From Clavaria fumosa (lineage: Eukaryota > Basidiomycota > Agaricomycetes > Agaricales > Clavariaceae): a DNA stretch of 64,000 nucleotides. This document shows positions 12,074 to 37,900 of the stretch, one piece after another. The stretch's first letter is position 1. Each line of letters starts with the position of its first letter. The notes below the pieces were generated by a model. It did no database searches. It was not told the DNA's origin and saw only the letters and a list, made by a program, of their open reading frames with translations. Made by a program: the position numbers and the translations under genes. The stretch covers positions 1,488,001 to 1,552,000 of the forward strand of contig OX637795.1 in NCBI GenBank assembly GCA_951802425.1, read 5' to 3'.

Positions 12074-12208
12074 ATCAGCAAAGCAGCTTAGCTAATTTGT
12101 CAGTATAGAGTGGTATGGACTGGTATGTAACACCCCAAGACAACCTGGGGTGTTACACACCAGTCCATACCTGTCCATACTTACATTTAGCCAAGCTGTT
12201 TTGCTGAT
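12074..12208. mobile_element. Short foldback MITE, copy A
   Basis: About 135 bp that is one long hairpin. The outer arms are ATCAGCAAAGCAGCTTAGCTAA and its near complement at the right end. The inner stem is GGACTGGT, TGTAACACCCCA and their complements around an 8-base loop near 12138. Copy B at 21011-21134 has the same layout and outer sequence with a diverged core. No clear target duplication is visible. Confidence 0.75.
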
Positions 12209-12244
12209 CATTGAGGGGTGTATTCTATCCTCCTGTTTAGATTA

Positions 12245-15200
12245 TTCAGCTTCCACAAGCTCTGGATAGCAAGAGTCAAGCTGATTGCCTTGTAGAGAAT
12301 ATTCATTGTCACTGTCATACCATTTTACAACACAAACAAATCATCCGTTTATGTAAATATTCCCAGTTGCGAAGGCCGAATGTCGCCGCTCATCTACCTT
12401 CAATAGCCCATACATCAAACGACGAAACCAGCATCTTCCCATGCCCCAGTCAGCAATTCCCTATATCTTCTCTCTTGCGTTCTCAGATGACTACTTCGCA
12501 GTTCAAGCTCCTCGCTGGCCATGACACCAACCTCTATGCGTGAGAACTGAAGCAGAAAAGTCAGCCTCTCTTGCTCTTGGACATCGCTCACAATCGGGGC
12601 CTTGAGTTTGACGATCTCTTGCATCTTTCTTGCCAACGCGACACATCCCGTGATACTGATCCAGTCCGGACATTCTTCGTCGGGGTTGGGGAAGCAGCCT
12701 GGCAGAACAACGTTGACATCATGAAGATGAAAGTCTGAGGAATGCTCTTGTTTGCCAATCATCCAATTTGGCGAAGGCGAAGCCTACTTACCAAGACGTG
12801 GAATACAAGGATCTTGAGATGAGTTCAAGGCCTCGCGATAAGCCAAATTCGACTGGACAAAATCGCTCAGCTTGGTGAGCATCCTTCGGTCGCTGGCGCT
12901 AAGGACTCCCAGCGTCTCATGGAGACATTGGATAATCTCCGAATTAAGTGCTCGTCCAATGGCTGTCACAGATGAGAAATTCCGCATTTTATAGCAAATC
13001 TAATTTTCAAGGAAGGTTGTCGTTTCTAGCTCGAATCCAGGAAGTGACGACAACTCACATTCGCTATGCGAAGGAACAATTTCAAAACGTCGGCTCTCTG
13101 CGGTACCAGATCGTGTCGAAGCAGTTCTCGCTTTACCCAGCATGTAACCTTCTCAGTCATGGCGAGTGCCTTTGCGACACGGTCAGGCCCGTCAAGTTGC
13201 CGAAGATGAGTGATGTAATCAGCCGGACGAATGGAGCTGTACATCAGTCCCTCAATCGCAATGAGTATGGCGGCAATTTTCTTCGGCGTGCATTCCAGCA
13301 GTACAGGGACGGCTGTGGCAGCAGATGCACGCAGCTGTATGCGGGGCCGTTGCTCCACCTGGAGTTCAACTGAGACCATCGACCAATTTAATGATGTGGC
13401 GGAAAGCTGACCTTTCCTTTGATAATGGCGAGTATTTTGCTTGCCTTTTCCCTCATGATAGGGGAGCTGTTAATCGACTTCGCGAACGCACCCATTTGCT
13501 CAATGACGCGTGGATTTATGGGCATATACGGGCTGTTGACCCAGTACTCCATCGCAGAAAGGGCGCTGACATTACAATGGACATGAGTCGGAAAAGTCCT
13601 GACGGTGTCCCGACAAGCATACCTTTGGCGCCTGCCTATGCGATACTGTGCTGTTTCACTACTAATTCCTGCAGCGTCGAAGCAATAACGGAGGCCTTGG
13701 AACACCTCCAGACAATCCGAGAATGCCATATAAGTTGCTAGGAACACATCTTGGAATAGTAAATCCTTGCGATAATCTGGAAGGGATAGTTTGAGTTTGA
13801 AATTGAATTCGGGATAGGATACGAACACCTCACCGGAAGAGCGAGTAATCCAGCGCTCGAGGAGATCGTCGAAAGTCCACTTTGCTATCGCAGTATTTTG
13901 GCAGGTGGGTATGGGACGGCCAGGGATGTCGATTCTGAAGTCAGAGGGCTCTTGGATAGAGCTGGCCATTCGGGACAGTGCATGCGTAGACCGCACGCCA
14001 AATAACTCCGTTGTGCGTGACGGGCTGGTTTGGCTGAGAGCTTCACTAGTGCCTGCCGACCCATTGCTGTCTTTGGGGTAGTGGCGCAGAGATCGCAGAC
14101 TCAGGCTGGAGGTCTCGCCGATTTCGGGTCGTGTAGAGCAGACGCGATCATTAGATGATAGTCCGGGATTCTGAGACGCATCACTTGTGGTAGAAAAACT
14201 GTGGCGCTTAGAGAGTGTGACTGGGTGGACGTCGCTCGGTGACAGAGATCTGAGGTTCTGAGGAGCGTTGCCTGTTGAGGGTCCAGCTAATTGAGATGCG
14301 TCGCCCGTTGACAGTCGAATGGAATGAGATTCGTCGCCCGTGGATGATTGAGCCGCGTGAACAACATGTGGAGGTCCAAGATTGCGAGGTTTCTTGCTCG
14401 TTGAGGATTCAGCAACACCGCCTGTTGACGAATAAGAATTATGGCCTGTAGAGGGTCGAGTCTCGTTAACGGCATCATTCGATGATGGAGGTCCAAGTTT
14501 ATTGCTTGTTGATGACCCAGCAACTTGAGGTGTACCGCCTACTGACGAATAAGAACTATGACTTGTAGAGGGTCGAGTCTCGTGAACGGCGTCGTTCAAT
14601 GACGGAGGTCCGATATTGCGAAGTTTGCTGCTTGTTGGGGATCCAGCAACCTGAGGTGTGGCAATTCGAGCCGCGTGAACGGGATCATTCAATAATGGTG
14701 GCTCAAAATTGCGAGAACCATTGCATTTCGAAGGCTCGGCCACGTGAAGCGTGCCGCCTAATAACGAGTGAGGACTGTGGCCTGCGGAGGGTGGGGCCGG
14801 GTGGGCGGCATCGCTCGGTGATGGCGGTCTAAGAATATGATGAGGGTTTGAAGCAACCTGGTGCGTGTCGCTCGCTGAGGGTTGTGTAGCAGGAGAGCTT
14901 AGGATCGCTATGGGTCGAGTCGAGAAGATGGTGTTGCTTAGTGACGGTGGTGCAAAAATATGAATGTCGCTTGTTGAGGGTCCAGGAGCGGCGATGCTCG
15001 AAAACGGTTTAGTGGAATGAGAGCCGTAGAGCGTTGGAGATGCAGGACTTCTTGGGCTATCTCTCGGTGAAGCTTCCGCAATGCCGGAACTGTCTGTTGG
15101 CGATGCCCCGGGCAGAGCGTTTCGGTGGAGAGACGACACTTGGAGCCTTCCAACGAGCTCGGAGGGGACAGATAAAACCCGTCTAGGCTGAGAGGCAATG

Positions 15201-17641
15201 GCAGGGCTCAAGAGGCTAGATATCGCGTTGCAAACCCCTACCGCAATTGGCCGTCGACTAGGATCTTTTGACCAACATGCCTCTGCAAGGGACCAGAGTT
15301 CATCAGAAATCCAGCCAGACTGATTATCCTTAGGACGTTGAGGGCGAACATTCTTGTCGACAACTAGCACAAAAAGATCTCCATAATCAATGTGACCAAG
15401 AGGGACTTCTCCTGTTAGAATCTCGAAGGCGTAGTTTTAGCCAAAAGGGAAGAGTTGCGCAGGCAGACGTCACCTACCTCAAACATGGTCATCCCAAATG
15501 CATAAATGTCAACAGGCTTTTCCAAGGATCCTATAAAGATGCGGCTGTCAAAATTGCGCTTCATATCACAATATCCAGTCTACCTCCCGTTATCCTTTCT
15601 GGGGACATCCAGTTCCGGCTCCCAGCCACTGAAATGAGTCCTACTTTAGTCGAGCGAGAGGTGGCATCAGATTTGATCGAGGAGAGGCCAAAATCACTGA
15701 GTACAGCACGCTCGCCGTCATCGATAAGTACATTGAGCTGGGGGAAATGATCTTATTAGCTGTTAGCAGTTCGGGAACAATGCATCACAACAGTACAGCT
15801 TTGAGATCACCGTGAATGACGCCATTGTCATGTAAGTAAGCCAGTCCAAGACTGACGTGATGGAGCTAAACAAGATTCATAAACGTTCTACTCAGTCGAT
15901 TAAAGGTAGAAGCAACCTACAATCGAAAGTCGATTACACTGCGGATGCTTACAAATGTAATCTTTCGCAGTCCCATTCTTCAGGAATGGCATAACGATAA
16001 ATGGTTCGTCGTCATGTATACTAGCACCAAGAAACTCTGTTTGGAAAAAGATGTAAGCACCAGATGAAAGTCATGTCAAGGTAAAGATTGGGGGAATCTC
16101 ACGGAGTATATGGAGATGTCGAAGGGACGACCAAGTCTAACCAGATCAATTAGCTAAGAAAAGACATCATGCATGCAAACGCTCCACTTTAATTTCTCGA
16201 GAAATCAACTAAGCGTGGGTTAGAGGAAATCAGTTTGGTTCAGAGAGATTGAAGACGTACATCTACGTTTGGTGTAGCACCTGACTCTGTCTTCAGGACT
16301 TTGAGGGCCACCTGCGTCCGATTCCAAGTTCCTTTGTACACTTCGCCACTGGTGAAAAGTGAGATTCCCATGTACGCCGGACATGATGATAATACGCACA
16401 AGCCACCCAATCCAATCTTCGGCCCAAATTCGACTTCAAATGACGTTACCATCCAACTCTCTAAATTGATGTGCAATTCGGTAACCGTCGCCAGATGATT
16501 GAGGGTGTAAGAGAAGAATCGACGTTCACGCTCGCCGAAACGCCGCGTTTTGATGAACTTTTTCAGTGCAGTCATCATGGCAACCACGTTAGCATGATGC
16601 ACGTCTGTCACATATTCATGGGTGAACCTGCAAACGCCTGGAGGGAGTTGAGAGTAATAGGTACCTAACACCTCCTCGAGCTCAACCTGATTTACTTCAA
16701 GCTCGGTGAGACGATCATTCAATGCATTTTGATCTGCGGCTCGGCTAGAGTCATTCTGATTCTGCCATTCCTGGATGACAGGTGCAGAGATCTTCGACGA
16801 GGTGAGGTTAACATAATCGCCAAATTTCGAAACTCACCTGGAAGGCGCGGGCGGAGAGGGAAGATATTCGACGATGGAATGACTCTATTGCGGCGATCCT
16901 GTCATCTTTGGAGAAGAGAAGCTTGAGGAAATTACAACCCGACTCTTTCGCAGCGAAGGTGTTAATATCCCCAATGATCCTTTTGAGAAAAGTCAGCAAG
17001 CGCACAGTGGAGCAAAGCAGTTTCCCACTTCTGGAGATTCCCAAGCTCTTGTGAGATGTTACTTTCCACAATGCGGCCAGCGTGAACCTCGCGGTCGAGG
17101 GTCTGCAGAAGCTGAGCAGTAGAGATCGCGAGGGCTTTCAATTGTAGTTTGTTCCACTGCACGCGTGTGATAGATGACCAAAGGCAACGGAAAACCAGGA
17201 ATACAAGTCGGAGGCAAGGAACCGGAGTTGCAGACTCGGATATGCAAGCTTCGACGGCGTCCATAGTACTTGGACCTCTAAGAACCGTTGACGGTAGCGC
17301 AGATAGCGGGCTTTGTTCAAAGCCATTGCTGCCACGATTATAATAACAGGTTCCGCATTTGTTGTTGGCTGACCAGGGTACTAAGCTGAGCGCTGATCGC
17401 GATCGCGGAATTTCCTAAACGGTGTTAAAGATCGACGCTTTGCTTATTCGGTGTTTCATGTGAGGCTACTGCGCTTCGCCCATACTTACCCTGGCCATTC
17501 TTCACGCTGGTCTTTCACCCCCAGACTGCGACACATGCCACATTGTACCGCATGCGTGTGAAATTCTACAAATCCAAAAGATCACATGATAACTGTGATG
17601 TATCTTCGGACCGTAGTGGTCAAAGCGTTGCTGTACACGGG
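12245..17641. repeat. Left arm of a large inverted duplication
   Basis: Runs from TTCAGCTTCCACAAGC at 12245 to GCTGTACACGG at about 17641 and is the reverse complement of 20684-26196 throughout, in exons, introns and flanks. Every intron position of the two genes corresponds. Differences are scattered substitutions, indels in the disordered linker of the gene, and a MITE present only in the right arm. The arms therefore arose from a single duplication event including promoter and 3' flank. Confidence 0.95.
12415..17264 (-). CDS. MLKL-like domain / TKL kinase / RasGEF fusion protein, copy L, about 1373 aa
   Basis: Fourteen exons: 17264-17029, 16979-16838, 16770-16400, 16348-16261, 16208-16188, 16136-16103, 16036-15921, 15865-15797, 15737-15584, 15530-15478, 15421-13412, 13358-13059, 12999-12792, 12734-12415. 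All introns are GT-AG, phases match, and the frame is open. Domains: N-terminal helical bundle (aa 1-126) of the MLKL-NTD type; kinase with IGLGGFGEV loop, VALK lysine, HGDLK loop, SDFG and MSPER; Ser/Pro-rich linker (about aa 500-930); RasGEF_N with QDVFLATYMAF; RasGEF from about aa 1099 (LLECTPKKIAAIL to the end). Predicted role: signal-controlled kinase able to load Ras-type GTPases with GTP. It differs from copy R mainly in the linker, which is 23 aa longer here. Transcribed away from the GPCR gene. The domain calls are by pattern, not by a database search. Confidence 0.85.
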
Positions 17642-18470
17642 GTTGTTTGTAAATGTTGTGACCTCCCACCACATCACTGACCCAAATGTTGCGATGAAGT
17701 TGCAGGCTTCCACAGGCATTTTGAAGCTTAGTTTTAGTGAAACAAAATGATTACAGATTTAATTCGAGTAAATTGTCCAAGACGAAATTTCTAATTTTTG
17801 CCTCAATATTTAAATACAAGCACTGGTGGTGTAATATAAATTCATTGAGGTCAAAATTAAAAATTCTGCCTTGGACAATCTGTTTAAAATAATTCTGGGA
17901 TTGTTTTATCTCACTAAAATGAATCACCAAACTCAATAGAGAGGCCAGAAAGGTGAAAATGATGAGTACAATACTAAATTGTATATATTGGGTGAGATAA
18001 AAAATGTATTTCCTGCATTCCTCAGCCACTTTTGAGCTTAACTTTAGTGAGAGATATTGTTTCTATGTATGTGGTCTATATTCCCCAGCAATTAGAATAT
18101 TTTTACGATTTTTATCTCACCCAATATATGCAATTTAGTATTGTACTCATCATTTTCACCTTTCTGGCCTCTCTATTGAGTTTGGTGATTCATTCTAGTG
18201 AGATAAAACAATCCTAGAATTATTTTAAACAGATTGTCCAAGGCAGAACTTTTAATTTTGACCTCAATGAATTTATATTACACCACCAGTGCTTGTATTT
18301 AAATATTGAGGCAAAAATTAGAAATTTCGTCTTGGACAATTTACTCGAATTAAATCTGTAATCATTTTGTTTCACTAAAACTAAGCTTCAAAATGCCTGT
18401 GGAAGCCTGCAACTTCATCGCAACATTTGGGTCAGTGATGTAGTGGGAGGTCACAACATTTACAAACAAC
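17642..18470. mobile_element. 829-bp foldback element in the spacer
   Basis: Left arm 17642-18005 and right arm 18109-18470 are reverse complements with only scattered mismatches, around a loop of about 100 bp. Termini are GTTGTTTGTAAATG and its complement. The left edge coincides with the inner end of the left arm of the large inverted duplication. The arm ends carry the last codons of the ORF at 18362-18676, so each arm includes the 3' part of that coding sequence. No transposase is present; whether this is a transposon or an inverted duplication made in place is open. Confidence 0.85.
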
Positions 18471-18676
18471 TCCCCTGTCTTATTGCTCGCAACCACCATG
18501 CTCAATGCACATTCCAACAAAAAGAAATTGGCTCTAGTTGTAGGCAACACACATTCCCATGCAACTGTAAAAACAAAAATTTTGATTTCCTTTTCTGCAT
18601 CTCTATCCCACACAGATAAGTTATCAGCCTCGAAGCTGTTCAAAGTCATAGCACCCAGGGCCTGATCATCAATCAA
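18362..18676 (-). CDS. Hypothetical protein fragment, 104 aa, overlapping the foldback
   Basis: Single open frame with a protein-like composition (MIDDQALGAM... ending LKLSFSETK). I do not recognise a family. The upstream two thirds lie outside the foldback and the last third lies in its right arm; the same last third is repeated in inverted form at the left edge (about 17647-17750). This suggests the foldback arose from, or captured, the 3' end of this gene. It may be a 5'-truncated remnant, because no intron or upstream exon is evident. Confidence 0.4.
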   Translation of the reverse strand: MIDDQALGAMTLNSFEADNLSVWDRDAEKEIKIFVFTVAWECVLPTTRANFFLLECALSMVVASNKTGELFVNVVTSHYITDPNVAMKLQASTGILKLSFSETK

Positions 18677-20533: not shown

Positions 20534-21010
20534 TCACCGTGTGTCCTTCACCTTTCAGATGAATGAACTAAAAGATGTGCACTGCGATTTTTTGTCCCGG
20601 CGTCTATGTAAATACCCCTAACTGCGACATGCTGAATTTAATTGTCAAATTTCCTGACCACAATAAACCCAACATGTCACTCCGTGTACAGCAACGCTTT
20701 GACCACTACGGTCCGAAGATACATCACATTTTGATACAGGTCTCATTGTGATCTTTTGGATCTGTAGAATTTCACACGCCATGCTGTACAATGTGGCACG
20801 TGTCGCAGTCTGGGGGTGGGAAACCAGCGTGAGGAATAGCCAGGGTAAGTATGGGCGAAGCGCAGAGTGACCAAGTAGCCTCACATGAAACACCGAATAA
20901 GCAATGGAGCGTCGATCTTTAATTAGGTCCTAAATTTAGGACATTCCGCGATCGCGATCAGCACAAGAAGCGGTCGGCTTATGCTGATTTGGAGTCCTTG
21001 ATCAACCAAT

Positions 21011-21134
21011 AGCAAACCAGCTCGGCTAAATGTAAGTATAGACAGGTGTGGACTGATGTGTAACATCCCAGTTGTCTTGCCAGTGGGATGTTACATACTG
21101 GTCTATCCCGACAATTTAGCGAGGCTATTTTGCT
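21011..21134. mobile_element. Short foldback MITE, copy B, in the promoter of gene copy R
   Basis: Hairpin with outer arms AGCAAACCAGCTCGGCTAAAT and its near complement, and inner stem TGTAACATCCCA...TGGGATGTTACA. It shares layout and arm sequence with copy A (12074-12208). It ends about 105 bp upstream of the start codon of the right-arm gene and is absent at the equivalent place upstream of the left-arm gene, so it inserted after the duplication or was lost from one arm. Confidence 0.75.
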
Positions 21135-21239: not shown

Positions 21240-24200
21240 ATGGACGCCGTCGAAGCTTGTATATCCGAGTCTGCAACTCCGGTTCCTTGCCTCCGACTTA
21301 TATTCCTGACCTTCCGTTGCCTATGGTCATCTATCACACGCGTGCAGTGGAATAAACTACAATTGAAAGCCCTCGCGATCTCTACTGCTCAGCTTCTGCA
21401 GACTCTCGACCGCGAGGTTCACGCTGGCTGCATTTTGGAAAGTAACATCTCACAAGAACTTGGGAATCTTCAGAAGTGGGAAACTGTTTCGCTCCACTGT
21501 GCGCTTGCTGACTTTTCTCATAAGGATCATCGGGGATATTACCTCCTTCGCTGCGAAAGAGTCGGGTTGTAATTTCCTCAAGCTTCTCTTCTCCAAAGAT
21601 GACAGGATCGCCGCAATTGAGTCATTCCTTCGTAGAATATCTTCTCTCTCCGCCCGCGCCTTCCAGGTGAGTTTCGAAATTTGGCGATTATGTTAACCTC
21701 ACCTCGTCGAAGATCTCTGCACTTGTCATCCAGGAATGGCAGAATCGGAATGACTCTAGCCGAGCCGCAGATCAAAATGCATTGAATGATCGTCTCACCG
21801 AGCTTGAAGTAAATCAGGTTGAGCTCGAGGAGGTGTTAGGTACCTATTACTCTCAACTCCCTCCAGGCGTTTGCAGGTTCACCCATGAATATGTGACAGA
21901 CGTGCATCATGCTAACGTGGTTGCCATGATGACTGCACTGAAAAAGTTCATTAAAACGCGGCGTTTCGGCGAGCGTGAACGTCGATTCTTTTCTCACACC
22001 CTCAATTATCTGGCAACAGTTACCGAATTGCACATCAATTTGGAGAGTTGGATGATAACGTCGTTTGAAGTCGAATTCGGACCGAAGATTGGATTGGGTG
22101 GCTTGTGCGTATTATCATCATGTCCAGCGTAGATGGGAATCTCACTTTCCACCAGTGGCGAAGTGTATAAAGGAACTTGGAATCGGACGCAGGTGGCCCT
22201 CAAAGTCCTGAAGACAAAGTCGGGTGCTACACCAAACGTAGATGTACGTCTTCAATCTCTCTGAACCGAACTGATTTCCTCTAACCCACGCTCAGTTGAT
22301 TTCTCGAGAAATTAAAGTGGAGCGTTTGCATGCATGATGTCTTTTCTTAACTAATTGATCTGGTTAGACTTGGTCGTCCCTTCGACATCTCCATATACTC
22401 CGTGAGATTCCCCCAATCTTTACCTTGACATGACTTCCATCTGGTGCTTACATCTTTTTCCAAATAGAGTTTCTTGGTGCTAGTGTACATGACGATGAAC
22501 CATTTATCGTTATGCCATTCCTGAAGAACGGGACTGCGAAAGATTACATTTATAAGCATCCGCAGTGTAATCGACTTCCGATTGTAGGTTACTTCTACCC
22601 TTAATCAACTGAGTAGAACATTTATAAATCTTGTTTAGCTCCATCACGTCAGTCTTGGACTGGCTTACTTACATGACAATGGCGTCATTCACGGTGATCT
22701 CAAAGCTGTACTGTTGTGATGCATTGTTCCCGAACTGCTAACAGCTAATAATATCATTCCCCCCCAGCTCAATGTACTTATCGATGACAGCGGGCGTGCT
22801 GTACTTAGTGATTTTGGCCTCTCCTCGATCATATCTGATGCCACCTCTCGCTCGACTAAAGTAGGACACACTTCAGTGGCTGGGAGCCGGAATTGGATGT
22901 CCCCAGAAAGGATAACGGGAGGTAGACTGGATATTGTGATATGAAGCGCAATTTTGACAGCCCCATCTTTATAGGATCCTTGAAAAAGCCTGTTGACATT
23001 TATGCATTTGGGATGACCATGTTTGAGGTAGGTGACGTCTGCCTGCGCAACTCTTCCCTTTTGGCTAAAACTACGCCTTCGAGATTCTAACAGGAGAAGT
23101 CCCTCTTGGTCACATTGATTATGGAGATCTTTTTGCGCTAGTTGTCGAAAAGAATGTTCGCCCTCAACGTCCTATAGATGAACAGCCTGGCTGGATTTCT
23201 GATGAACTCTGGTCCCTTGCAGAGGCATGTTGGTCGAAAGATCCTAGTCGACGGCCAATCGCGGTAGGGGTTTGCAACACGATTTCTAGCCTCTTGAGCC
23301 CTGCCATTGCCTCTCAGCCTGTCCCCTCCGAGCTCGTTGGAAGGCTCCAAGTGTCGTCTCTTCACCGAAACGCTCCTCCCGGGGCGTCGCCAACAGACAG
23401 TTCCAGCATTTCGGAAGCTTCGCCGAGAGATAGCCCAAGAAGTCCTGCATCTCCTACGCTCTGCGGCTCTCACTCCACTAAACCATTTTCGAGCATCGCC
23501 GCTCCTGTGGCTGGACCCTCAACAAGCGACATTCATATTTTTGCACCACCGTCACTAAGCAACACCATCTTCTCGACTCGACCCTTAGCGATCCTAAGCT
23601 CTCCTGCTACACAACCCTCAGCGAGCGATAAGCACCAGGTTGCTTCAAACCCTCATCATATTCTTAGACCGCCATCACCGAGCGATGCCACTCACCCGGC
23701 CCCACCTTCCGCAGGCCACAGTCCTCACTTGTTATTAGGCGGCACGCTTCACGTAGCCGAGCCTTCGAAATGCAATGGTTCTCGCAAATTTGAGCCACCA
23801 TTATTGAGTGATCCCGTTCACGCGGCTCGAATTGACACACCTCAGGTTGCTGGATCCCCAGCAAGCAGCAAACTTCGCAATATCGGACCTCCGTCATTGA
23901 ACGACGCCGTTCACGAGACTCGACCCTCCACAGGTCATAGTTCCTATTCGTCAACAGGCGGTACACAGGTTGCTGAATCCTCAACGAGCAAGGAACCTCG
24001 CAATCTTGGACCTCCAAATGTTGTTCACGCGGCTCAGAACCTCAGATCTCTGTTACCGAGCGGCTACGTCCACCCAGTCACACCCTCTAAGCGCCACAGT
24101 TCTTCTACCACAACTGATGCTTCTCAGAATCTCGGACTATCATCTAATGATCGCGTCTGCTCTACACGACCCGAAATCGGCGAGACCTCCAGCCTGAGTC

Positions 24201-26021
24201 TGCGACCTCTGCGCCACCGCCCCAAAGACAGCAATGGGAGTTCTTTTACCACAAATGATGCTTCCCAGAATCCCGGACTATCATCTAATGATCGCGTCTG
24301 CTTTACACGACCCGAAATCGGCGAGACCTCCAGCCTGAGTCTGCGATCTCTGCGCCACCGCCCTAAAGACAGCAATGGGTCGGCAGGCACTAATGAAGCT
24401 CTCAGCCAAACCAGCCCGTCACCCACAACGGAGTTATTTGGCGTGTGGTCCCCGAATGCACTGTCCCGAATGGCCAGCCCTATCCAAGAGCCCTCTGGCT
24501 TCAGAATCGACATCCCTGGCCGTCCCATACCCACCTGCCAAAATACTGCGATAGAAAAGTGGACTTTCGACGATCTTCTCGACCGCTGGATTACTCGCTC
24601 TTCCGGTGAGGTGTTAGTATCCTATCCAGAATTCAATTTCAAACTCGAACTATCCCTTCCAGATTATCGCAAGGATTTACTATTCCAAGATGTGTTCCTA
24701 GCAACTTATATGGCATTCTCGGATTGTCTGGAGGTGTTCCAAGGCCTCTGTCATTGCTTCGACGCTGCAGAAGTTAGTAGAGAAACAGCACAGTATGGCA
24801 TAGGCAGGCGCCAAAGATATGCTTATCGGGACACCGTCAGGACTTTTCCGACTCATGTCCGTTGTAATGTCAGCGCCCTTTCTGCGATGGAGTACTGGGT
24901 CACCAGCCCGTATATGCCCATAAATCCACGCGTCATTGAGCAAATGGGTGCGTTCGCGAAGTCGATTAACAGCTCTATCATGAGGGAAAAGGCAAACAAA
25001 ATACTCGCCATTATTAAAGGAAAGGTCAGCTTTCCGCCACATCATTAAATTGGTCGATGGTCTCAGTTGAACTCCAGGTGGAGCAACGGCCCCGCATACA
25101 GCTGCGTGCATCTGCTGCCACAGCCGTCCCTGTACTGCTGGAATGCACGCCGAAGAAAATTGCTGCCATACTCACTGCGATTGAGGGACTGATGTACAGT
25201 TCCATTCGTCCGGCTGATTACATCACTCATCTTCGGCAACTTGACGGGCCTGACCGTGTCGCAAAGGCACTCGCCATGACTGAGAAGGTTACATACTGGG
25301 TAAAGCAAGAACTGCTTCGACACGATCTGGTACCGCAGAGAGCCGACATATTGAAATTGTTCCTTCGCATAGCGAATGTGAGTTGTCGTCACTTCCTGGA
25401 TTCGAGCTGGAAACGACAGTCTTCCTTGAAAATTAGAATTGCTATAAAATGCGGAATTTCTCATCTGTGACAGCCATTGGACGAGCGCTTAATTCAGAGA
25501 TTATCCAATGTCTCCATGAGACGCTGAGAGTCCTCAGCGCCAGCGACCGAAGGATGCTCACCAAGCTGAGCGATTTTGTCCAGTCGAATTTGGCTTATCG
25601 CGAGGCCGTCAACTCATCTCAAGATCTTTGTATTCCACGTCTTGGTAAGTAGACTTCGCCTTCGCCAAATTGGATGATTGACAAACAAGAGCATTCCTCA
25701 GACCTTCATCTTCATGATATCAACGTTGTTCTGCCAGGCTGCTTCCCCAACCCCGACGAAGAATGTCCGGACTGGATCAGTATCACGGGATGTGTCGCGT
25801 TGGCAAAAAGGATGCAAGAGATCGTCAAACTCAAGGCCCCGATTGTGAGCGATGTCCAAGAGCGAGAGAGGCTGACTTTTCTGCTTCAGTTCTCACGCAT
25901 AGAGGTTGGTGTCATGGCCAGCGAGGAGCTCGAACTGCGAAGTAGTCATCTGAAAACGCAAGAGAAAAAATATAGGGAATCGCTGACCGGGGCATGGGAG
26001 GATGTTGGTTTCGCCGTTTAA
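21240..26021 (+). CDS. MLKL-like domain / TKL kinase / RasGEF fusion protein, copy R, 1350 aa
   Basis: Fourteen exons: 21240-21475, 21525-21666, 21734-22104, 22156-22243, 22296-22316, 22368-22401, 22468-22583, 22639-22707, 22768-22921, 22975-23027, 23084-25024, 25078-25377, 25437-25644, 25702-26021. These sum to 1351 codons with stop, without a frame break. aa 1-126: helical bundle resembling the MLKL/HeLo-type N-terminal domain (conserved CNFLKLLFSKDDRI helix). aa 245-500: kinase with IGLGGFGEV (245-253), Lys266, catalytic HGDLK (Asp356), SDFG (374-376), MSPER; all catalytic residues are present. aa 500-905: Ser/Pro/Thr-rich linker with internal repeats. aa 908-1075: RasGEF_N. aa 1076-1350: RasGEF with NFSSVTAI and CIPRL motifs. 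An uninterrupted read-through in any single frame is impossible, so only the spliced model shows the fusion; separate shorter genes with alternative ends remain a less likely reading. Confidence 0.87.
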
Positions 26022-26800: not shown

Positions 26801-29800
26801 TCAAACGGGCAGAAGTGCGAGTTCGCGAACGAAGGTCTCGAATGCGGGTCGCGGGAGTGGCTTCGTGAAACCATCGGCTATGTTTTCGCTCGTCAGCACA
26901 TATTCCACTCGTATTGTCCCCTGCTCGACGGCCTCTCGAACGAAGTGGTGACGGATGTCGATGTGCTTGGTGCGTGCATGGAATTTGTTGTTTTTTGTTA
27001 TCGCGATGGTGGACATGTTGTCCAGCCACAATCTCGTCGCTCCCGGTTCGCTCGCTCCTACCTCCGTCAGAAAGCTCCTTATCCAAAGTATCTCCCTCGC
27101 AGCGACGGCAGCTGCGATGTATTCCGCTTCGGTACTGGATTGCGCGACCAGGGTTTGCCGCTTCGAGGACCAGCTGACAGCTCCGCATCCGATACGCATA
27201 ACGAACCCGGATATCGAATGGCGATCAGGTTGCGATGCCCAATCTGCGTCTGAGAAGACCTCGGGGCGTGTTCCTTTGCCTCCCAGGGTGAGCCAAAGGT
27301 CTTTCGTCGTGTTCAAGTACCTTATCACACGCTTTAGCGCTTCCCAATGAACGCGGGCAGGGTTCATTGTAAACTGCGAAAGTATCCCAATGGCGAGTTG
27401 GACATCTGGGCGGGATATAACGGCTGGCCAGAGCACGCCGCCGCAAGCCTCCTGGTACGGTACGTCAATCGGTTCAGCGGGGCATTGATCCTTTGATAGG
27501 ACGGCGCACGGATCCATCGGGATATGGACGGGATGTCCATCCTGGAGCCCGAATCGCTGGGCTAGAACTTCCAGGTACGCCCGTTGATTTAGTGCAATTG
27601 TTCTTGCCGCCCTGTCTCTTCTGATTTCGAATCCTAGGAGCCATGACAACTCGCCCTGATCTGTAATTTCAAACGAGTTCCGCAGTTCGTTTTTCACTCG
27701 GTTGACAGCGGCGCGTGTGCTCCCCATCACGACCATGTCATCCGTGGAAACCGTGACGTGTACGTTTTCGTTTTGTTGTACCCGGATGAACGCTGATTGG
27801 TCTAGTTTGGACACGATAAAACCCAGGGATATAAAGGTCGCGGCCAATTTTTGATACCAGATGCGTCCTGACTGTTTCAGTCCGTACAGCCCCTTGCGCA
27901 GCCTGCAAACTTTTCGTCCGTCGTTCGCGCTGAGTACTGCGTGCGGTAGCTCCATGTATACCTCTTCCTCCAGCTCGGCATTGAGGTAAGCTGCTACGAC
28001 ATCCACTTGGTCTATCTCCCAATCTCGTTGTGCAGCTAGGGCAAGTAGGACTCGTATGGACGCAATCTTCGCTGCAGCGGCGAAGGTTTCATTGTAGTCT
28101 GTCCCTTTCGTTTGCCTGTGTCCTCCTGCGACGACGCGAGCCTTGTATTTGACGATTTCGCCCTTAGGACCCAGTTTTAGCCTGAAGACGTATCCGCACG
28201 GAATAACTGGTTTGTCCGGAGGTCGGTCGACGATGTCCCAGGTGCGTGAGCGGTTCAACTGGTCCAGCTCGATCTGATAGGCCCTCTTCCATTGGTTAGC
28301 ATCCGGACCAGCTAGCGCTTGAGCTATAGAGCGTGGCTCGCTGCCAATGGAACCTGCAAGTAAGGCGAACAGCGGCGGGTGGTCGTCAGTTTGAACATCG
28401 GCTAGATTTGCGGCGTGCCCTCGTGGGGCGTAGCCGGCCAGGTTTTTGTAGAAACCGGGTTGAGGGCGGGTGCGGCTAGGAAGTGGGTCGTCGTCGATTG
28501 ACGGAGCAGCGGGTAAGTTCATTTGTGGTTCTTCATTTGGGGGATCGGGCTGATCAACGGCTATCGGGGGGTAGTTGGGCTGATCGGTGGAGTGCTGATT
28601 GAGCCGTGTTATCGTCCTCCCCTCAAGCGGCAGTTCACCGGTCCAAACGATAGCGTCAGTGTTTTCATCTAGATTGAACACAACCTCACGTTCGATCCTG
28701 ATCTGTTTAGTATCAGGAAAATAGATCCTGTACCCTGTACTAGTTGAGTCAATCCCGAGAAAGTGACCCTTGCGCGCTCGCCGTTCGAGCTTGCCGGCAT
28801 CGGCGATCTTTACCCATGCTGGTGTGCCAAAAGGCACTAGTTTAGACAGGTTGGGGTGCTTAGCGTAGCGGGCGTGGAACGGAGTTTCACCTTCGAGGGC
28901 GCGGGTAGGTGATCTATTCTTTATCCAAGCTGCGTGAGTCATAGCTTCGCCCCAGAGAAATTTGGGGAGGTTTGAGTCAATAAGCATGGCTCTCGCAAGC
29001 TCTGCTTTCGTCCTATTCCAGCGTTCGACTGCTCCCACCTGCTCGTGGGTGTCATGCGTGGTGAGCTCGCGTTTTGTACCTTTCTCAGCTAGATGGTCTG
29101 AGAATGCGTCAATGTTGAACTCCCCTCCTCGGTCAGAGCGTAGGAACTTTATCCTCGTCTTGTTGTGAGTGCTTATTTGCGCTTCCAACCTTTTGTAAGC
29201 ATTGAAAGCATCTGACTTTTTGTGCAGGAGGGAGATTTCGGTCCAGCGAGTCGCGTCATCGACAAAATCGACTGTGTAGCGGCTACCGCCGAGTGATGCG
29301 ATGGAAGCAGGGCCCCAAACATCAGCGTGGATGCGTTCCCCGTAGGTTTTTGCACGATTGGTAGCTTTATCAGGGAATGGTAACCGGTGCGGTTTAGCCT
29401 GAGCACATGCGTCACAGAAGACCTCTTCGGATGCATTGTCTATCGAGATCCCGAGTACTTTGCCCGAAGACACGGCGTGTTTGACTGCGGCGTAGTTTAT
29501 ATGACCCAAGGCACGGTGGGCTTCGAACAATGTAAGCGTTCGTTGCTTCTTGGCTAGGTGGGCTTCTAAAGATAATGTCTTTATGCGGTATAACCCATTC
29601 ACTTTAGGGATTTGTGCAAGCACTTTCCCTTGGTGATCCTTTATCTGGCAAAGATTGTCGGTGAACTCGGCAGTGTATCCGGCATCATCCAGTTTCCCAA
29701 CAGATACAAGAGTAAATGCCATGCTGGGTGCGTGCGCGACGTTCCGTAGTCTTAGGGTACTTGTGCGCTCACCATTCTGTGTTTGTAGAATGATATCGCC

Positions 29801-30934
29801 GCGACCAACGGCTTTTAACTCGCGTCCGTCGGCAGCGGTGATAGCAGTCGGACTGGTAGAAGAGTAGCTTACAAACATTGACCTGTCTGGACAGAAATGC
29901 GCGGTTGCGCCGCTGTCTAGGATGATGTCGTGCGGTTTACCCGTCTGGGATATGGCGGCTGCGACTTCATGCCGGTCCACTAGGCAAGTAAATGCAAGGT
30001 ATTCTTCGTCATTTTCTTGCTTTTTGGCCTGTGTGGCTGCGGTATTGGCTTTGTCCTTTTTCTTTTGCCAGGGCGCTTGGCCTTGCTTCGCTCCGCCGTC
30101 AGAGTAACAGTTTTCGGTCTTGTGATTGGTGCGTTTGCAGTTTTCACAGGGTGTTTTCGTGCCTGAGTCGTCTGATTTTCCCTTGCGGCCTTTACCCTTT
30201 TTAACATGAAGGGCTGCGTCACCAGATTTGGACGCAAGGTCTGTTATTTCGCGCTGTCGTGCTTCCTCTAAGACTATACGCATGAGGTCATTTGGAGAGA
30301 TCTCCGTAGATGACAGGCTTGCGGCATGCGTGATTGAGTGAAGGAGGCTGCGATAGCTAGGCGGCAAGGAAGTAAGTATCATGGTCGTGAAGTCATCGTC
30401 CATCACTGATGCGCCGATGCCTTCAAGTTCGTCTCGAACCTTGATCATTGCGTTTAGGTGTGCTTTGATGTCGCCGTCCTCGGCACAGGTCATGGACTGC
30501 AACCTGCGGCGCGTGTCAACTTTGTGAAGTTGACTCTTTCGAGTAGCGTCGGTGCGTATTGCCTTCCACATCTCAGATGCTGACAAGGACTTGATGACCG
30601 TTGCGAGACGTGGTGATACCGTAGTAAGTAATATGTGCTGGGCACTATATTCTTTTTGCTCGTACTCGTCAAACTTTCGTTCTTTTTCTTCGAGGTCGTC
30701 GTCAGTAGCTTTTATCCCTGGAGCCTTCATTGGAATTCCGGCATCTTCAGGGTAAGCAACTGGTTTTCGTGCAGTTCCATCACGATGCCTTATTAACCCT
30801 CTCGCGCCCATTGCGGTGCGGGCTTTTGACTCGTAGTCAGCCCAGTTCGCTCCGTCGTCGCGGAGTCGAGGGACACCTAAGGCGTTGGAGGAGGTATTGG
30901 TGGTCGTGAGGTCGTTTTGCGCGACGAATCTCAT
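26801..30934 (-). CDS. Copia Gag-Pol polyprotein, 1377 aa
   Basis: One continuous frame from ATG (30934-30932), five bases after the 5' LTR, to TGA (26803-26801). Domains in order: Gag of the UBN2 type (aa 1-250), CCHC knuckle CENCKRTNHKTENC (about 262), aspartic protease ILDSGATAHFC, GAG-pre-integrase zinc site (HRALGH...CDACAQAKPH), integrase core with HADVWGP, FLRSDRGGEF and the following Glu, RT (KARVVAGGHRQTKG, LYGLKQSGR, STDDMVVMG), RNase H (FSDADWASQPD, SSTEAEY). The active-site motif reads STDD, keeping both aspartates but lacking the usual tyrosine-valine. No stop or frameshift is present. Confidence 0.96.
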   Translation of the reverse strand: MRFVAQNDLTTTNTSSNALGVPRLRDDGANWADYESKARTAMGARGLIRHRDGTARKPVAYPEDAGIPMKAPGIKATDDDLEEKERKFDEYEQKEYSAQHILLTTVSPRLATVIKSLSASEMWKAIRTDATRKSQLHKVDTRRRLQSMTCAEDGDIKAHLNAMIKVRDELEGIGASVMDDDFTTMILTSLPPSYRSLLHSITHAASLSSTEISPNDLMRIVLEEARQREITDLASKSGDAALHVKKGKGRKGKSDDSGTKTPCENCKRTNHKTENCYSDGGAKQGQAPWQKKKDKANTAATQAKKQENDEEYLAFTCLVDRHEVAAAISQTGKPHDIILDSGATAHFCPDRSMFVSYSSTSPTAITAADGRELKAVGRGDIILQTQNGERTSTLRLRNVAHAPSMAFTLVSVGKLDDAGYTAEFTDNLCQIKDHQGKVLAQIPKVNGLYRIKTLSLEAHLAKKQRTLTLFEAHRALGHINYAAVKHAVSSGKVLGISIDNASEEVFCDACAQAKPHRLPFPDKATNRAKTYGERIHADVWGPASIASLGGSRYTVDFVDDATRWTEISLLHKKSDAFNAYKRLEAQISTHNKTRIKFLRSDRGGEFNIDAFSDHLAEKGTKRELTTHDTHEQVGAVERWNRTKAELARAMLIDSNLPKFLWGEAMTHAAWIKNRSPTRALEGETPFHARYAKHPNLSKLVPFGTPAWVKIADAGKLERRARKGHFLGIDSTSTGYRIYFPDTKQIRIEREVVFNLDENTDAIVWTGELPLEGRTITRLNQHSTDQPNYPPIAVDQPDPPNEEPQMNLPAAPSIDDDPLPSRTRPQPGFYKNLAGYAPRGHAANLADVQTDDHPPLFALLAGSIGSEPRSIAQALAGPDANQWKRAYQIELDQLNRSRTWDIVDRPPDKPVIPCGYVFRLKLGPKGEIVKYKARVVAGGHRQTKGTDYNETFAAAAKIASIRVLLALAAQRDWEIDQVDVVAAYLNAELEEEVYMELPHAVLSANDGRKVCRLRKGLYGLKQSGRIWYQKLAATFISLGFIVSKLDQSAFIRVQQNENVHVTVSTDDMVVMGSTRAAVNRVKNELRNSFEITDQGELSWLLGFEIRRDRAARTIALNQRAYLEVLAQRFGLQDGHPVHIPMDPCAVLSKDQCPAEPIDVPYQEACGGVLWPAVISRPDVQLAIGILSQFTMNPARVHWEALKRVIRYLNTTKDLWLTLGGKGTRPEVFSDADWASQPDRHSISGFVMRIGCGAVSWSSKRQTLVAQSSTEAEYIAAAVAAREILWIRSFLTEVGASEPGATRLWLDNMSTIAITKNNKFHARTKHIDIRHHFVREAVEQGTIRVEYVLTSENIADGFTKPLPRPAFETFVRELALLPV

Positions 30935-30938: not shown

Positions 30939-31168
30939 TATAGAATAACTAGGGTTATTTCGTTAGCTCAGTCAAAGTTAAGACTGTATGTAATTGTTGC
31001 AGTACCTAGGGTTATTTCGTTCTACCCTAGGCCATCAGTACGGTTATAATGTGAAGTGAAAAGATGTAAACTCACAGCTCAGTCAAAGTTAAGACTGAGC
31101 TGTGGCACTGCTACGTCGTAGCCAAATAAACACACGCGTTACGTAATCTGTCCGGGTGATTACCAATA
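30939..31168 (-). repeat. Copia 5' LTR
   Basis: 230 bp, identical to the 3' LTR. It should carry the promoter of the element; transcription runs toward lower coordinates. Confidence 0.97.
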
Positions 31169-32986
31169 GCTCTGGCCCAAGCACTCTCTTCCTGGCATCC
31201 ATCACATTATTTTCCAGTTCTTTTGCCTCATCATACCTTCCCTGAGCACTATATGTTGATGCCAACTTGCTTGTGCTGTTCAGAGTACTTGGATGCTCTG
31301 GGCCAAGCACTCTCTTCCTTGCCTCCACCACATTGATTCCAAGCACCTCTGCTTCATTGTATCTTCCCTTAGCCCTATATGTGTTTGCCAAATTGCTAAT
31401 ACTGGTCAGAGTATCTGGATGCTCTGGGCCAAGCGCCCTCTTCCTAATTTCCAGCACTTTACATTTTAGTACTTCTGCTTCATCATGTCTTCCCTGAGCA
31501 CTATATGTTGATGCTAATTTGCTCATGCTGTTCAGAGTACCTGGATGTTCTGGGCCAAGTACTCTCTTCCTTGCTTCCATCACATTGACTTCCAGTAATA
31601 CTGCTTCATCATATCTTCCTTCAGCCCTATATGTATTAGCCAAATTACCAATACTGATCAGGCTCTCTGGATGTTCTGGACCAAGAATTCTTTTCTTGGC
31701 TTCCACAACACTGACTTCTAGTATTTCTGCTTCATTGAACCTTCCCTGAGCATTATATATGGATGCCAAATTGCTAATAGCAATCAGGGTATCTGGATGC
31801 TCTGAGTCAAATACTCTCTTCCTGACTTCTACTACTTTGACTTCCAGCTCTTCTGCCTTATTGTATCTTCCCTGAGCAATGCATGTTGATGCCAAATTGC
31901 TAATACTTCTCAGAGTATCTGAATGCTGGAAACCCAGTGCTTCTTGTCTGCTTTCCATGACTTGCAGTTGCAGCTTCTCTGCATACCCCCAATGCCCATT
32001 ATCAAAATACACCTTTGCCAGCTTCTCATCTCTATCAGCATCTTTGATAATGTATGCAGCCTCTTGAGCATGCTTTTCCAGTGCCATTATGTGTGGGACC
32101 AATGATCTTTGAAAGGCATGGACAGCAGTTGTGTCCTCAAATGTGATTGAGTGACATACTAGAATCTCCACAGATTTGCATTTTGATTTTTTCTTCTCCT
32201 TACTTAATCCATCCCAGCACCAGCAATGTACTAATGGATGCATGGAGTATAATTTTCCACCACTGCCCTTTTGCACAAGGGAAAATGATTTTAACATTTC
32301 AGTTGCCTTCCTGAAGATGAAGCCATCCCAGCAGCCTTCATCGTCAACCTGCAATATACCAGGCCAATACAATGAATCCCCCAACAATTGTTGTAAGTCA
32401 TCCTTTACACTACCATCCTTTGCCTCAGCTTTAGCCATCTCTTCAGCTGCATGCTTGAACATCTGCTCTGGAATGTTTTCATGATGCAGGAGGGCAAATA
32501 TATGCAGAAGAAGAATTGCACTTGAAGCCACTGGAGCATTATTACCCACAATTGCCCTTGCTTCTATCTCCATAATTGAGAGTTCCCATGTCCCATAAAC
32601 TGCTTGCCCATAGTTGGAGGCTCCCTTGAATAAATGGGAGTCCAGCAAGTCCCGACGGTGTCTCTGATATGTCTCAAGATAGTCATCAAGGTCACAAAGA
32701 CCACTTGCAATGGATGCACCAGCTTGATCAACAGCCAGAGGCAGGCAGCACAAGGCAACCACAATAGGTTGTGCTGCCTGTCTCAGGTCATCATCACCTT
32801 CACTGCAATGGGCAGCTTTCAGAAGAAGGGAGACTGCATCCTGCTCTTCCATCTGGTCCAATTCAACTGAGGCATCAGGCTCCACCAGCCTACGCATATT
32901 GGGATTATGGCTGGTGATCAGAATGTTGCCTTGGTTGTGTGTGGGCATGTAACTCCCGACTATGTCAGGATCACCTGCACTATCAT

Positions 32987-33290
32987 TGTCAGGATCGCTT
33001 ACATAAGCAGGTTGGAAAGGCCAAGAAAGGATCGCAAAAGAGTTGCGGGAAGTTTGCGCACGAGTCACGTGACCCGAACGGGTGGTGGCTTACATAATGG
33101 GAAAATCACGTGACCCGGGCCTGGACGCATCACGTGACGCACGGGTCCGAGCGTGGGAACGCAGGCAACTCCCGAACCGCTCGCTATATATACTACGTCG
33201 CTTTCTTACTTGTACCCTTTTCCCCTTATGTTAGTATCGTCATCATCGACCTTACGTTAAGTTGTGTGAACCGTGAGACTAAGTCGGACA
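32987..33290 (+). repeat. Gypsy 5' LTR
   Basis: 304 bp. Contains three TCACGTGA palindromes spaced over about 90 bp (33064-33142) and a TATATATA box near 33185, a plausible promoter layout. Confidence 0.96.
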
Positions 33291-33943: not shown

Positions 33944-34937
33944 ATGGCTGACCACGTCGCCCCGCCTGAAGTCCATGCCACGAGGCTGGATTTAGTCGTC
34001 GCCCCATTTGATGGGCAAAAAAGAAATTTCCGTACATTCCTCCGGTCGCTCCGCCTCCTGTTTATGGCGAATCCGATAATCTATGCCACGGACCTGGCAA
34101 AGGTCCTCTACACCCTCAGCAAAATTACTGGCGAGGGGTTTGCCGCAGAATGGGCAAATGTGAAGGGAGAGGAAATCCTGGGTAACAACGAGGTTGGAAC
34201 CTGGGCAGAATTTGTGGAAGAGATGAAGCGAGCGTTCGATGACCCGAACGACCGTGCGACTGCCCTCGCAGATATTGCGAAGTTGAGTCATGACGGCACC
34301 TGAGTTCTTCGCAAAGTTCGAAACAATGTTCCGAAGAGCGGGGATGACAGAAGTGGCCAATTCGGACATCCTGGTCCATTGGCTGGAGTCGAATCTGAGC
34401 AGGAGGCTAGTGGGAAAGGTCTATGGTGTTTCGCCAATGCCAGAGACCTACGTGCAGTGGAAGGCACTTGCCGAAAAGCTAGACGCTCAGCAGCATCGCC
34501 TCGATGGAGTCATCGCACAACAGAACTCTGTGCGTCCTGCTCTGCCCGCAACCAGCCGCCCCCTCCCTCAACAAACCCGCTTCGCCCCAGCCCCCTGTCC
34601 CTTCCTGGCCCAGCCTCTGGCCTGCACCCCTGCCCCTCCCACCATGCCGCGTCCCACCAATGCCGGTGATGCCATGGTGGTGGATCGTGCCCGTGCCCCT
34701 GGAGTGTTGCGCACCTGCTTCCGATGTGGCCAAGCTGGTCACATGGTGAGAGATTGCCAGCTCCAGGACACACGTCCGCAGATCCCGAGGCCACAGATCC
34801 GCGCCGTGGAAAGCCAGGCACGTAGTGCAGAGGACTATGAGAACGAGATCGCACTGCTCCGAGACCGCCTGGATTTGCTCGAGAGAGAGAAGAGGGCTCC
34901 TGTTGAAGAGCCGGATTTTGGAGACGAGGCCCAGTGA
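33944..34937 (+). pseudogene. Gypsy gag, frameshifted
   Basis: The N-terminal half (33944-34303) encodes a capsid-like region (FDGQKRNFRTFLRSL, WAEFVEEMKRAF) and stops after KLSHDGT. The continuation lies in another frame from about 34290 (APEFFAKFETMFRRAGM) to TGA at 34935-34937 and holds the CCHC knuckle CFRCGQAGHMVRDC and a C-terminal coiled coil. The 14-base overlap and the internal position argue for a mutation rather than a programmed shift. Confidence 0.85.
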
Positions 34938-37900
34938 GTCCGAACTGGAGTCTCAGGAGTAGATATCCCAGCCCCCCTCCCGTCCCTGTACCCGCAGCTA
35001 GTATCCCAAAATACACTATCTTGCAGCGGAGACACACCCGGATTGGGGCTGAGGTGAAGGACAAAGTGGAAACGGAAACTGCTAAAAGTGAAATACCGAA
35101 AAGAGAAAAGGGGACTAGCAGCCAAGTGGAGCCAACAAAGCACCTTGCAGAGGTGCTGAAGGACACCCTATTGTGTATGCCCCGAGAGCTCTCCATCCAG
35201 GTGCACCTGGAGGCTCTCAGCACTGGCAAAGGGGCAACTACGAAAGCCCTTGTTGACTCAGGCTGCACCAACTGCTTTATGGACTTGGAGTGGGCGAAAA
35301 AAGTGGGATTGGAACCATCCCCCTTGCTGAATCCAATCACCATGTATAATGTGGATGGAACACAGAACAGAGATGGTAAGATCCGGTATGGGATGGAGCT
35401 GCTTGTGACAGTTGGCGACCACCAGGAGCGGGTCCACTTCCTGCTAGGGAAGACTCAGTCCCACACGGCGATCCTTGGGCATGATTGGCTAAAGCGTCAT
35501 AATCCAGAGATTGACTGGGTGAAAGCTGAAGTAAGGCTCACCTGCTGCCCCAACTCCTGTGCCTCCTCCCCACACAGCCACTGGTCCCCTGTTCGACCCT
35601 CAGGTCCACCAAAAGCGAGTACCCTGGCCTCGGCCAGTATCCCGGACACCCGTTTTCCCAACACTGGCCCTACCCCTGATTGGCCCAGCCGCTACCCTTT
35701 GGTTTTTAGTGAAGCAAAGTGGGATGAGCTCCCCCGCTCCCGCCCTGACTTTGATATCAAAATCGAGTTTAAAACAGACCCTGGACACCTCTCCTCTAAG
35801 CTATACTCTCTGACGCGAGAAGAGATGGTGGAAATGAATCGCTGGGTGGATGAGCAGCTAGCTTCTGGACAAATCCGACCTTCGAAGTCCCCGTACGCGA
35901 GCCCCTTCTTCTTCAAACGTGAGAAGGACAAGCTGCGGCCGATTATCGATTACTCTAGGCTGAACTCGTATCTAATCAAAGACAAGTACCCCCTCCCCCT
36001 CATACGAGACACTGTGGATGTGTTAAAGGGGGCAACCATCTATTCCAAGATTGATGCGAAGGGAGGTTTCCCATCGATGCAGGTCTGGCCAGAACATCAG
36101 CACCGCTGTGCTTTCCTAACGCCCTGTGGACTCTTCGAACTGGCAGTTATGTGGTTTGGGCTGCAGAATGCGCCTGCAACCTTCCAGCGCTTCATGAACC
36201 ATGTGTTGAGAGAAGAGATTGCAGGGGGGCATGTCCGAGCCTATGTCAATGATGTTATAGTGTTTGCAGAGGATTTGGCTACACATCGGTATTGGATGGA
36301 TCGGGTCTTGAAGAAGTTTGGGGAGAATGGCCTGTGTCTCAGACTCAGCAAGTGCGAGTTCGAGAAGAGTGAGGTTTTCTTCCTGGGGATGAAGATCTCC
36401 CACAACCGTCTAGAGCATGACCCAGCTAAAGGCGCGGCGATCCGTAACTGGCCCAGACCGAAAAATGTGAAAGAGGTACAAAGATTCAACGGGATGCTGA
36501 ACTACCTCCGCCAGCACATCCCAAATCTCTCTGCCTGGGCAAAACCACTCTTCCGGCTGACAGGGAAAGTCCTGTGGAGATGGGAGGAGGAGGAGGAAGC
36601 AGCCTTCCAAGATCTCCGCCTGGCACTAGTATCAGCCCCGGTCTTGGCTCTACCACAAGACAAAGGGAGATGGAAGGTAGAAACAGATGCGAGCAACTTG
36701 GCGACTGGAGGAGTTCTCTCACAGCAGCAGGTGGATGGGACTTGGAGAGTTGTAGACTACATCTCCAAAGCCCTCACTGCAGCTGAGAAGAATTACGATG
36801 TGTACGACAAGGAGTTCCTGGCTGTAATCCGGGCACTACACGAGTGGCGGGCTTACCTGATTGGGGTGGAAGAGACTATCGAAATCTGGATGGACCATGC
36901 TAACCTCCAGTACTTCTGGAAGCCCCAGAAGTTGAAACCGAGGCAGGTCCGTTGGGTTGGAGAGCTCCAGTGCTTTGACTTCGAGATCAAGTACCGTACT
37001 GGGAAGTCAAACACGAAAGCGGATGCACTCTCACAGAGGCCAGACTATGGAGAGATGGTGGAGGAGGATGCACCAGTACAGGTCTTCCCAGAGGCTGAGA
37101 CCCGCACATCGTTCACATCGGAGATGGAGACGCTACTCCAGAAAAACAGTGCGGTATATGTGCAGAAGCCAGAGGAGCTTGATGATGAGTGGACGAGAGA
37201 TCGGATGGGACTCTGGCGGAAGGCAGAAATCACTTGGGTGCCCCCAGAAGCACGTGAGGCAGTGCTCACCTTTGAGCATGACCTCCCCATCACAGGACAC
37301 CCTGGTCCACGGAAACTGAGGGCGGCTCTGCTGAGGTCCTATTGGTGGGTGGGCATGGTGAAGGATTCCAATCGGTATGCAGGTGGATGTGAGACATGCC
37401 AACGAATCAAGCCTGATCGTACCAGGCGCGCCGCTCCACTCCATCCGCACCCTGTCCCTGAGAGCCCCTGGGCAGTCATCTCTTGGGACATTGTTGGACC
37501 TTTCCCCCTCTCACGTGGTCACAATGTGATCCTTGTCATTGTTGACAAGTTTACAAAACGAACTCTCATCGAAGCTATTGGCCTTGACCTCACGGGACTT
37601 GGTGCTGCTCGGATCCTTCGAGACCGGGTCTTCCGCGACCATGGAGTCCCGCAGAAAGTTGTGAGTGACCGGGGAACCCAATTTGTGTCCAGATTCATGA
37701 GGGAGTTTTATGGGATGATTGGAGTTAAGGCGAACCCGAGCACTGCCTTCCACCCACAAACAGATGGACAGACAGAGCGGGTCAATCAGGAGGTTGAAGT
37801 GTATCTCCGGGCCTATGTTGACCATCTGCAGGATGATTGGGCAGAGTGGCTATCCACAGCCGAATTCGCGCTCAATAACCGTGAGCACTCAGCCACTGGA

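Follow-up and report, generated by a model that had tools for sequence, protein, structure and literature searches.

How does a fungal gene come to encode an MLKL-like bundle, a protein kinase and a Ras activator domain in one chain, and what would the tail of such a protein do? The question is raised by a gene of Clavaria fumosa at positions 21240 to 26021 (forward strand) of a 64,000-nucleotide stretch of contig OX637795.1 (assembly GCA_951802425.1, positions 1,488,001 to 1,552,000), referred to below as the window. Its stop-free frame runs from an N-terminal bundle through a kinase and a linker rich in serine and proline (Ser/Pro linker) to a RasGEF_N region and a RasGEF domain, and an inverted duplicate of the whole gene (copy 2) lies at 12415 to 17264 on the reverse strand. 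Trees and intron positions suggest that the gene is a domain-swap chimera, with a head (bundle and kinase) from kinases that carry TPR-type repeats and a tail (RasGEF_N and RasGEF) from a kinase-RasGEF family. On balance we favor, with modest confidence, a recombinant bundle-kinase in which a Ras-docking tail has taken the place of the usual repeats.

When the genome (48.8 Mb, 17 contigs) was searched for relatives of the window protein, 44 matches came up; of 189 candidates 34 were scored, and 16 stretches were examined. At least eight paralogs (L032-L039) were found to share the head and kinase, that is residues 1 to ∼510, at 46-48% identity, and this family is thus an expanded one here. Where the window protein has its linker and RasGEF part, all eight have TPR-type repeats after the kinase by reading, and L036 also by Pfam. 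In one of them, L033, the head is interrupted by an in-frame stop and the TPR frame ends early, and this paralog is probably a pseudogene. The same head and kinase (42% identity) were present in P0001, a partial protein of Mycena vulgaris. The kinase-RasGEF family was represented by L029 in this genome (C1; kinase E-value 5.4e-47, RasGEF_N 2.5e-8, RasGEF 5.8e-32) and by P0002 of Lactarius indigo (1116 aa; 5.4e-40, 6.7e-9 and 6.7e-34, respectively), which NCBI names ras guanine nucleotide exchange factor domain-containing protein. Both have the window's order of kinase, Ser/Pro linker, RasGEF_N and RasGEF, with RasGEF_N over its cut-off and the RasGEF profile spanning 1-180 of 181, and they are 36% identical to each other over 927 columns. 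The window protein is 35% identical to L029 over kinase and tail, and 26% identical to P0002 over the tail. Unlike the window kinase, those of L029 (VALR) and P0002 (VALA) lack the beta-3 lysine and may be pseudokinases, and the N-terminal regions of the two proteins showed no significant match to the window bundle. A genome search for RasGEF gave 14 exon matches that were grouped into eight loci, three of which, namely both window copies and L029, are immediately preceded by such a kinase in the same orientation. At the other five none was found among 142 of 244 candidates scored (the kinase near L031 is unrelated and lies on the other strand), and a kinase match was also absent from P0004 of Mycena floridula.

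In the kinase tree (11 rows, four of them TPR paralogs) the window kinases, the four paralogs and P0001 stood on one side of a branch with support 100/100, and L029 and P0002 stood apart from them with support 95/98. An earlier tree with eight paralogs and long branches had left the place of L029 unsettled, which was remedied after P0001 and P0002 had been added and the paralogs reduced to four. In the RasGEF tree (10 rows) the window tails joined L029 (89/89) within a group that also held P0002 and P0004 (100/100); the four kinase-RasGEF rows came together in just 25% of the bootstrap trees. The introns followed the same division. Nine of the ten head introns agree in residue and phase with those of seven of the eight TPR paralogs, and eight of ten with those of L035. 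L029 has all three tail introns in common with the window but two of eight in the kinase part, and with the revised gene model described below four of five tail introns are common. Trees and introns thus agree in grouping the head with the TPR kinases but the tail with the kinase-RasGEF family, and they suggest a domain swap, for which recombination within the fusion exon, in either direction, would be the simplest reading. The fused gene also gains independent support here, because its head introns are common to the TPR paralogs and its tail introns to L029.

Both copies were spliced by eye and by script, after which intron 13 was mended from homologs. In each, removal of 13 GT-AG introns left a frame free of stops. 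A 45-nt intron 13 (1354 aa) was dropped, as homologs favored an acceptor 12 nt downstream; with the corrected acceptor, copy 1 has 14 exons and 1350 aa. The original prediction of a single 1350-residue frame was thereby reproduced, but this frame is too long by 19 residues, because it takes in a 57-nt intron (phase 1) that is itself in frame and stop-free, at 24606-24662 in copy 1 and 13777-13833 (reverse strand) in copy 2. When aligned with other RasGEFs, the window proteins have a 19-residue insert in RasGEF_N, and the DNA of this insert is a typical intron, its length being a multiple of three. Splice-aware alignment picked the intron (read as 13833-13777 in copy 2) in both copies with each of two separate guides, Lactarius P0002 and L029, and an intron of L029 sits at the same residue and phase. 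The RasGEF_N E-value was 0.018 with the 57 nt retained versus 0.001 without them, a comparison of pieces that also start differently. Copy 1 thus likely encodes 1331 aa (57 nt being 19 codons) in 15 exons with 14 introns, and copy 2 encodes 1354 aa (1373 aa if 13 introns are assumed). A further candidate intron of 48 nt (24793-24840, phase 2), picked by the L029 guide for copy 1 alone, would give 1315 aa; the P0002 guide prefers 24726-24788, and the matching interval in copy 2 was chosen by neither guide. The P0002 guide also shifts the acceptor of the intron at 25025 from 25077 to 25101, and 25077 was retained in the model. An in-frame intron of 54 nt (23264-23317) was dropped, as it would delete the last kinase helix. 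The claim that 13 introns keep their phase in both copies held for the phases but not for the number, and copies that are 96% identical are not independent evidence of a real gene. That kinase and RasGEF form one fused chain was supported: the fusion exon (23084-24605) is stop-free across 1522 nt and joins the kinase C-lobe, the linker and the first RasGEF_N helix, length differences between the copies are in frame, and kinase-RasGEF homologs exist.

The predicted domain order was recovered for most of the chain. The bundle and brace region occupies 21240-22063 (aa 1-236, exons 1-3 of the spliced model) and the kinase 22064-23299 (aa 237-500), with a GLGGFG loop and, exactly where they had been placed, K266 (the beta-3 lysine), D356 and DFG 374-376; its catalytic loop reads HGD where HRD is usual. 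PF07714 matched aa 240-487 at 1.2e-45 (first model) and PF00069 matched at 9e-45, a whole-length kinase profile. The kinase is presumably of the TKL type; its top PDB matches were EGFR, STK24, CTR1 and ABL1 entries, with TNNI3K and RAF ranking lower. The linker (23300-24514, ∼405 aa) is 19% Ser and 13% Pro with internal repeats, among them an in-frame tandem duplication of 141 nt (two copies, 95%) at 24098-24379 on the forward strand. Next come the RasGEF_N (REM) region at 24545-25024, which stayed under its Pfam cut-off, and the Cdc25-type RasGEF domain with the C-terminal tail at 25078-26021.

The MLKL/HeLo-like character that had been claimed for the bundle was seen indirectly, by way of the paralogs and not in the window copies. 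The heads of these two copies had no match among the bundle families of Pfam. When ten N-termini were trimmed to ∼140 residues, MLKL_N (PF22215) was the best family in six; all six were TPR paralogs (six of seven), with E-values of 7.6e-5 to 2.6e-3, under the 27-bit cut-off. No such match was seen in the trimmed N-termini of L032, Mycena P0001 and both window copies. Longer N-terminal pieces matched MLKL_N in three of six cases (best 3.7e-4), with unrelated families reaching 0.0012 and 0.0018. A PDB profile search with the N-terminal region returned no MLKL chains and only chance matches (best E-value 0.24), an exon scan of the genome for MLKL_N gave two weak places elsewhere (best 0.06), and AlphaFold2 on the single P0001 sequence was unusable (mean pLDDT 34.6). 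Five paralog heads share 36-40% identity with those of the window copies, so the window bundle is likely MLKL-like by descent, at a level not above curated thresholds.

A RasGEF domain was found in the C-terminal part by profile search, the check that the original prediction had proposed. Its E-value was 8.6e-25 on the first model and 8e-28 on the tail with intron 13 corrected, and at 98 bits in copy 1 and 93.7 bits in copy 2 it passed the cut-off of 23.1. The match covered 2-162 of the 181 profile positions; an earlier end at 153 was set aside as partly an artefact of the wrong intron 13. RasGEF_N, with both candidate introns removed, reached 0.00084 (20 bits) in copy 1 and 0.005 (17.5 bits) in copy 2, versus a cut-off of 28.3 bits, and SOS2 chains in the PDB match the tail across RasGEF_N and RasGEF. 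A protein search with the window tail returned no matches at 1e-3. In an alignment of ten RasGEFs, the arginine codon CGT at 25638-25640 (forward strand; R1243 of the 1350-aa model) stands at the place that we take to be Phe929 of SOS1, where five rows have Phe and three have Trp (L029, P0002 and P0004); the two rows with Arg are the window copies. In SOS1, F929A cuts Ras binding more than 50-fold according to an excerpt of one report (PMC8623491), and it cripples RasGEF function according to an excerpt of another (PMC3762125); no passage on F929A turned up in PMC5538825. The place of Asn944, which is Cys in the window, was given no weight, since Asn occurs there in two of eight lettered rows (P0002 and P0003). 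With Arg standing in for Phe929 in copies 1 and 2 alike, docking is somewhat likelier than full nucleotide exchange, and the tail may dock Ras rather than activate it.

The two gene copies, which are 96% identical in each of the five longest arms, allowed us to compare constraint between the parts of the protein. Their exons differ in length in exon 11 alone, by whole codons, and their introns in intron 8 alone (60 versus 59 nt); intron divergence is 3.5% (25 of 716 sites). The number of linker repeats is unequal, with the 141-nt duplication in copy 1 (23300-24514) and an extra 37-residue unit in copy 2 (13922-15205), so linker length changes quickly. Substitutions between the copies were compared with random placement in 2000 simulations. 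The bundle had 11 amino-acid changes versus 19.5 expected (0 of 2000 simulations were as low), the kinase 16 versus 20.1 (145 of 2000), and the linker, whose repeats make its alignment less certain, 62 versus 88.1 (0 of 2000). The tail had 29 changes with 29.1 expected, and 1117 of the 2000 simulations were as low. Nei-Gojobori dN/dS ratios on the first model were 0.20 for the bundle, 0.46 for the kinase, 0.68 for the linker, 0.78 for RasGEF_N and 0.63 for RasGEF. The tail is therefore the least constrained structured part, with changes that look close to neutral, although constraint could persist. Together with the arginine at the Phe929 place, this makes the predicted activation of Ras doubtful.

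The original prediction knew of no characterized system with a kinase and its Ras activator in one chain behind such a bundle, and for the pairing of kinase and RasGEF this did not survive comparison with known systems: P0002 is in public databases, and the Roco protein GbpC of Dictyostelium carries kinase, RasGEF-N, DEP and RasGEF domains on a single chain, its RasGEF stimulating nucleotide exchange of GbpC's own Roc domain (excerpt of PMC6320773). GbpC differs in its LRR, Roc-COR, DEP, GRAM and cGMP-binding domains, none of which was found in the window protein; Roc and COR were absent among its Pfam matches up to an E-value of 1. SOS1, SOS2 and yeast Cdc25 combine RasGEF_N with a Cdc25-type domain as the window tail does, which differs from them in the Arg at the Phe929 place and in its fusion to a kinase. 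Basidiomycete MLKL-like (BaMLKL) domains are abundant in NLRs (excerpt of PMC9815663), and some fungal HELL domains occur in proteins with kinase or pseudokinase domains (excerpt of PMC12881547). In the excerpts of both papers, BaMLKL, HeLo-like and HELL proteins resemble the window protein in having a helical bundle ahead of a kinase; these excerpts mention no RasGEF in the BaMLKL and HELL systems, and membrane action is known for other members. An excerpt on the expansion of TKL kinases in Laccaria bicolor makes no mention of RasGEF (PMC2838846), and one on regulated RasGEF genes in Tulasnella draws no link to a kinase (PMC11503967). Both pairings have been seen before, that of kinase and RasGEF in GbpC and P0002 and that of HELL domain and kinase in fungi (PMC12881547). 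No description of the triple chain of MLKL-like bundle, kinase and RasGEF was found in the open-licence literature, among the matches listed.

If the gene product is a bundle-kinase with a Ras-docking tail, its head would be held inactive until the kinase is activated, as in other bundle kinases of the MLKL-like type, whereupon the bundle would oligomerize or act at a membrane. The Ser/Pro linker would be flexible and is a likely substrate of the kinase, and the tail would take over the role of the TPR repeats in input or anchoring, docking as an effector would on a GTPase of the Ras family at the membrane. Several points weigh against the docking tail, the domain swap or the MLKL-like head. 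The strong RasGEF profile score means that exchange may persist, dN/dS is below 1 in RasGEF_N and RasGEF alike, and the kinase-RasGEF family may simply use another Ras contact, to judge from the Trp in L029, P0002 and P0004. The constraint result for the tail is based on 42 substitutions and has low power, and gene conversion may distort it. The tree program gave a long-branch warning for L044, which adjoins the window group in the kinase tree. Neither window head matches MLKL_N, and the N-termini of L029 and P0002 may themselves be distant bundles (hhalign P 0.011, probability 3.8%), in which case the swap would have joined two similar architectures.

That the protein is instead an active kinase-RasGEF, in which the kinase or membrane recruitment by the bundle turns on a RasGEF that loads Ras with GTP, seems to us possible but doubtful. 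The 8e-28 profile match, the SOS2 alignment across RasGEF_N and the catalytic domain, the nearly full RasGEF profiles of P0002 and L029, the dN/dS of the tail and the GbpC precedent (excerpt of PMC6320773) would all fit such an enzyme, but both copies have Arg at the Phe929 place, the window match ends at 162 of 181, and tail changes are as numerous as under random placement. The same near-neutral changes, set beside a constrained bundle and the altered contact site, could also point to a tail in decay, with bundle and kinase at work and the RasGEF part a passive remnant in both copies. This we consider unlikely, since neither tail has a stop or frameshift (although no more than ∼1.2 stops were to be expected), four of five tail introns match those of L029, and dN/dS is below 1. 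It is very improbable that two neighboring genes, one for a bundle kinase and one for a RasGEF, were misjoined into one model, as the kinase C-lobe and the first part of RasGEF_N lie within the same 1522-nt open exon and kinase-RasGEF chains exist in L029 and P0002. More speculative, and unlikely, is an integrated decoy or Ras sensor in an immune-type kinase, where a RasGEF-derived domain with an altered contact site would replace the TPR array, and a membrane-acting head of the MLKL type would be gated directly by the state in which Ras is found or by an attack on Ras.

The surroundings of the gene pair hold long TPR_10/TPR_12 open frames at 3140-6856 (forward) and 31089-33068 (reverse), with a DUF7779 match under its cut-off. 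We take DUF7779 to be NLR-related, and these frames suggest that NLR-like TPR proteins flank the pair on both sides. Retrotransposon open frames of the Copia and Gypsy types lie at 355-1551 (forward), 26801-30934 (reverse) and 34934-38557 (forward), the two long ones beyond the 3' end of copy 1. Long hairpin-like inverted repeats were seen at 17639-18473, between the gene copies (370-nt arms, 98%), and at 9605-10680 (379-nt arms, 99%). In addition, a 70-nt inverted pair (12145-12214 and 21002-21071, 86%), possibly a miniature inverted-repeat transposable element (MITE), adjoins a short palindromic sequence and is placed 3' of copy 2 and 5' of copy 1.

The architecture indicates that fungal bundle-kinases can trade in their entire C-terminal part, TPR repeats giving way to a domain derived from a Ras activator, similar to the shuffling of effector and sensor parts in NLRs. 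It also points to an Agaricomycete kinase-RasGEF family that has so far been named by its RasGEF alone, and both members of which that we saw lack the beta-3 lysine. The near-identical gene pair, together with the paralogs that bear TPR repeats, would make every part open to testing. To our knowledge, Ras signalling and MLKL-type bundles do not meet in any one chain described so far; if the tail does bind Ras, this protein would unite the two, and if the decoy or sensor reading were true, it would be a Ras-gated, necroptosis-like switch within one protein.

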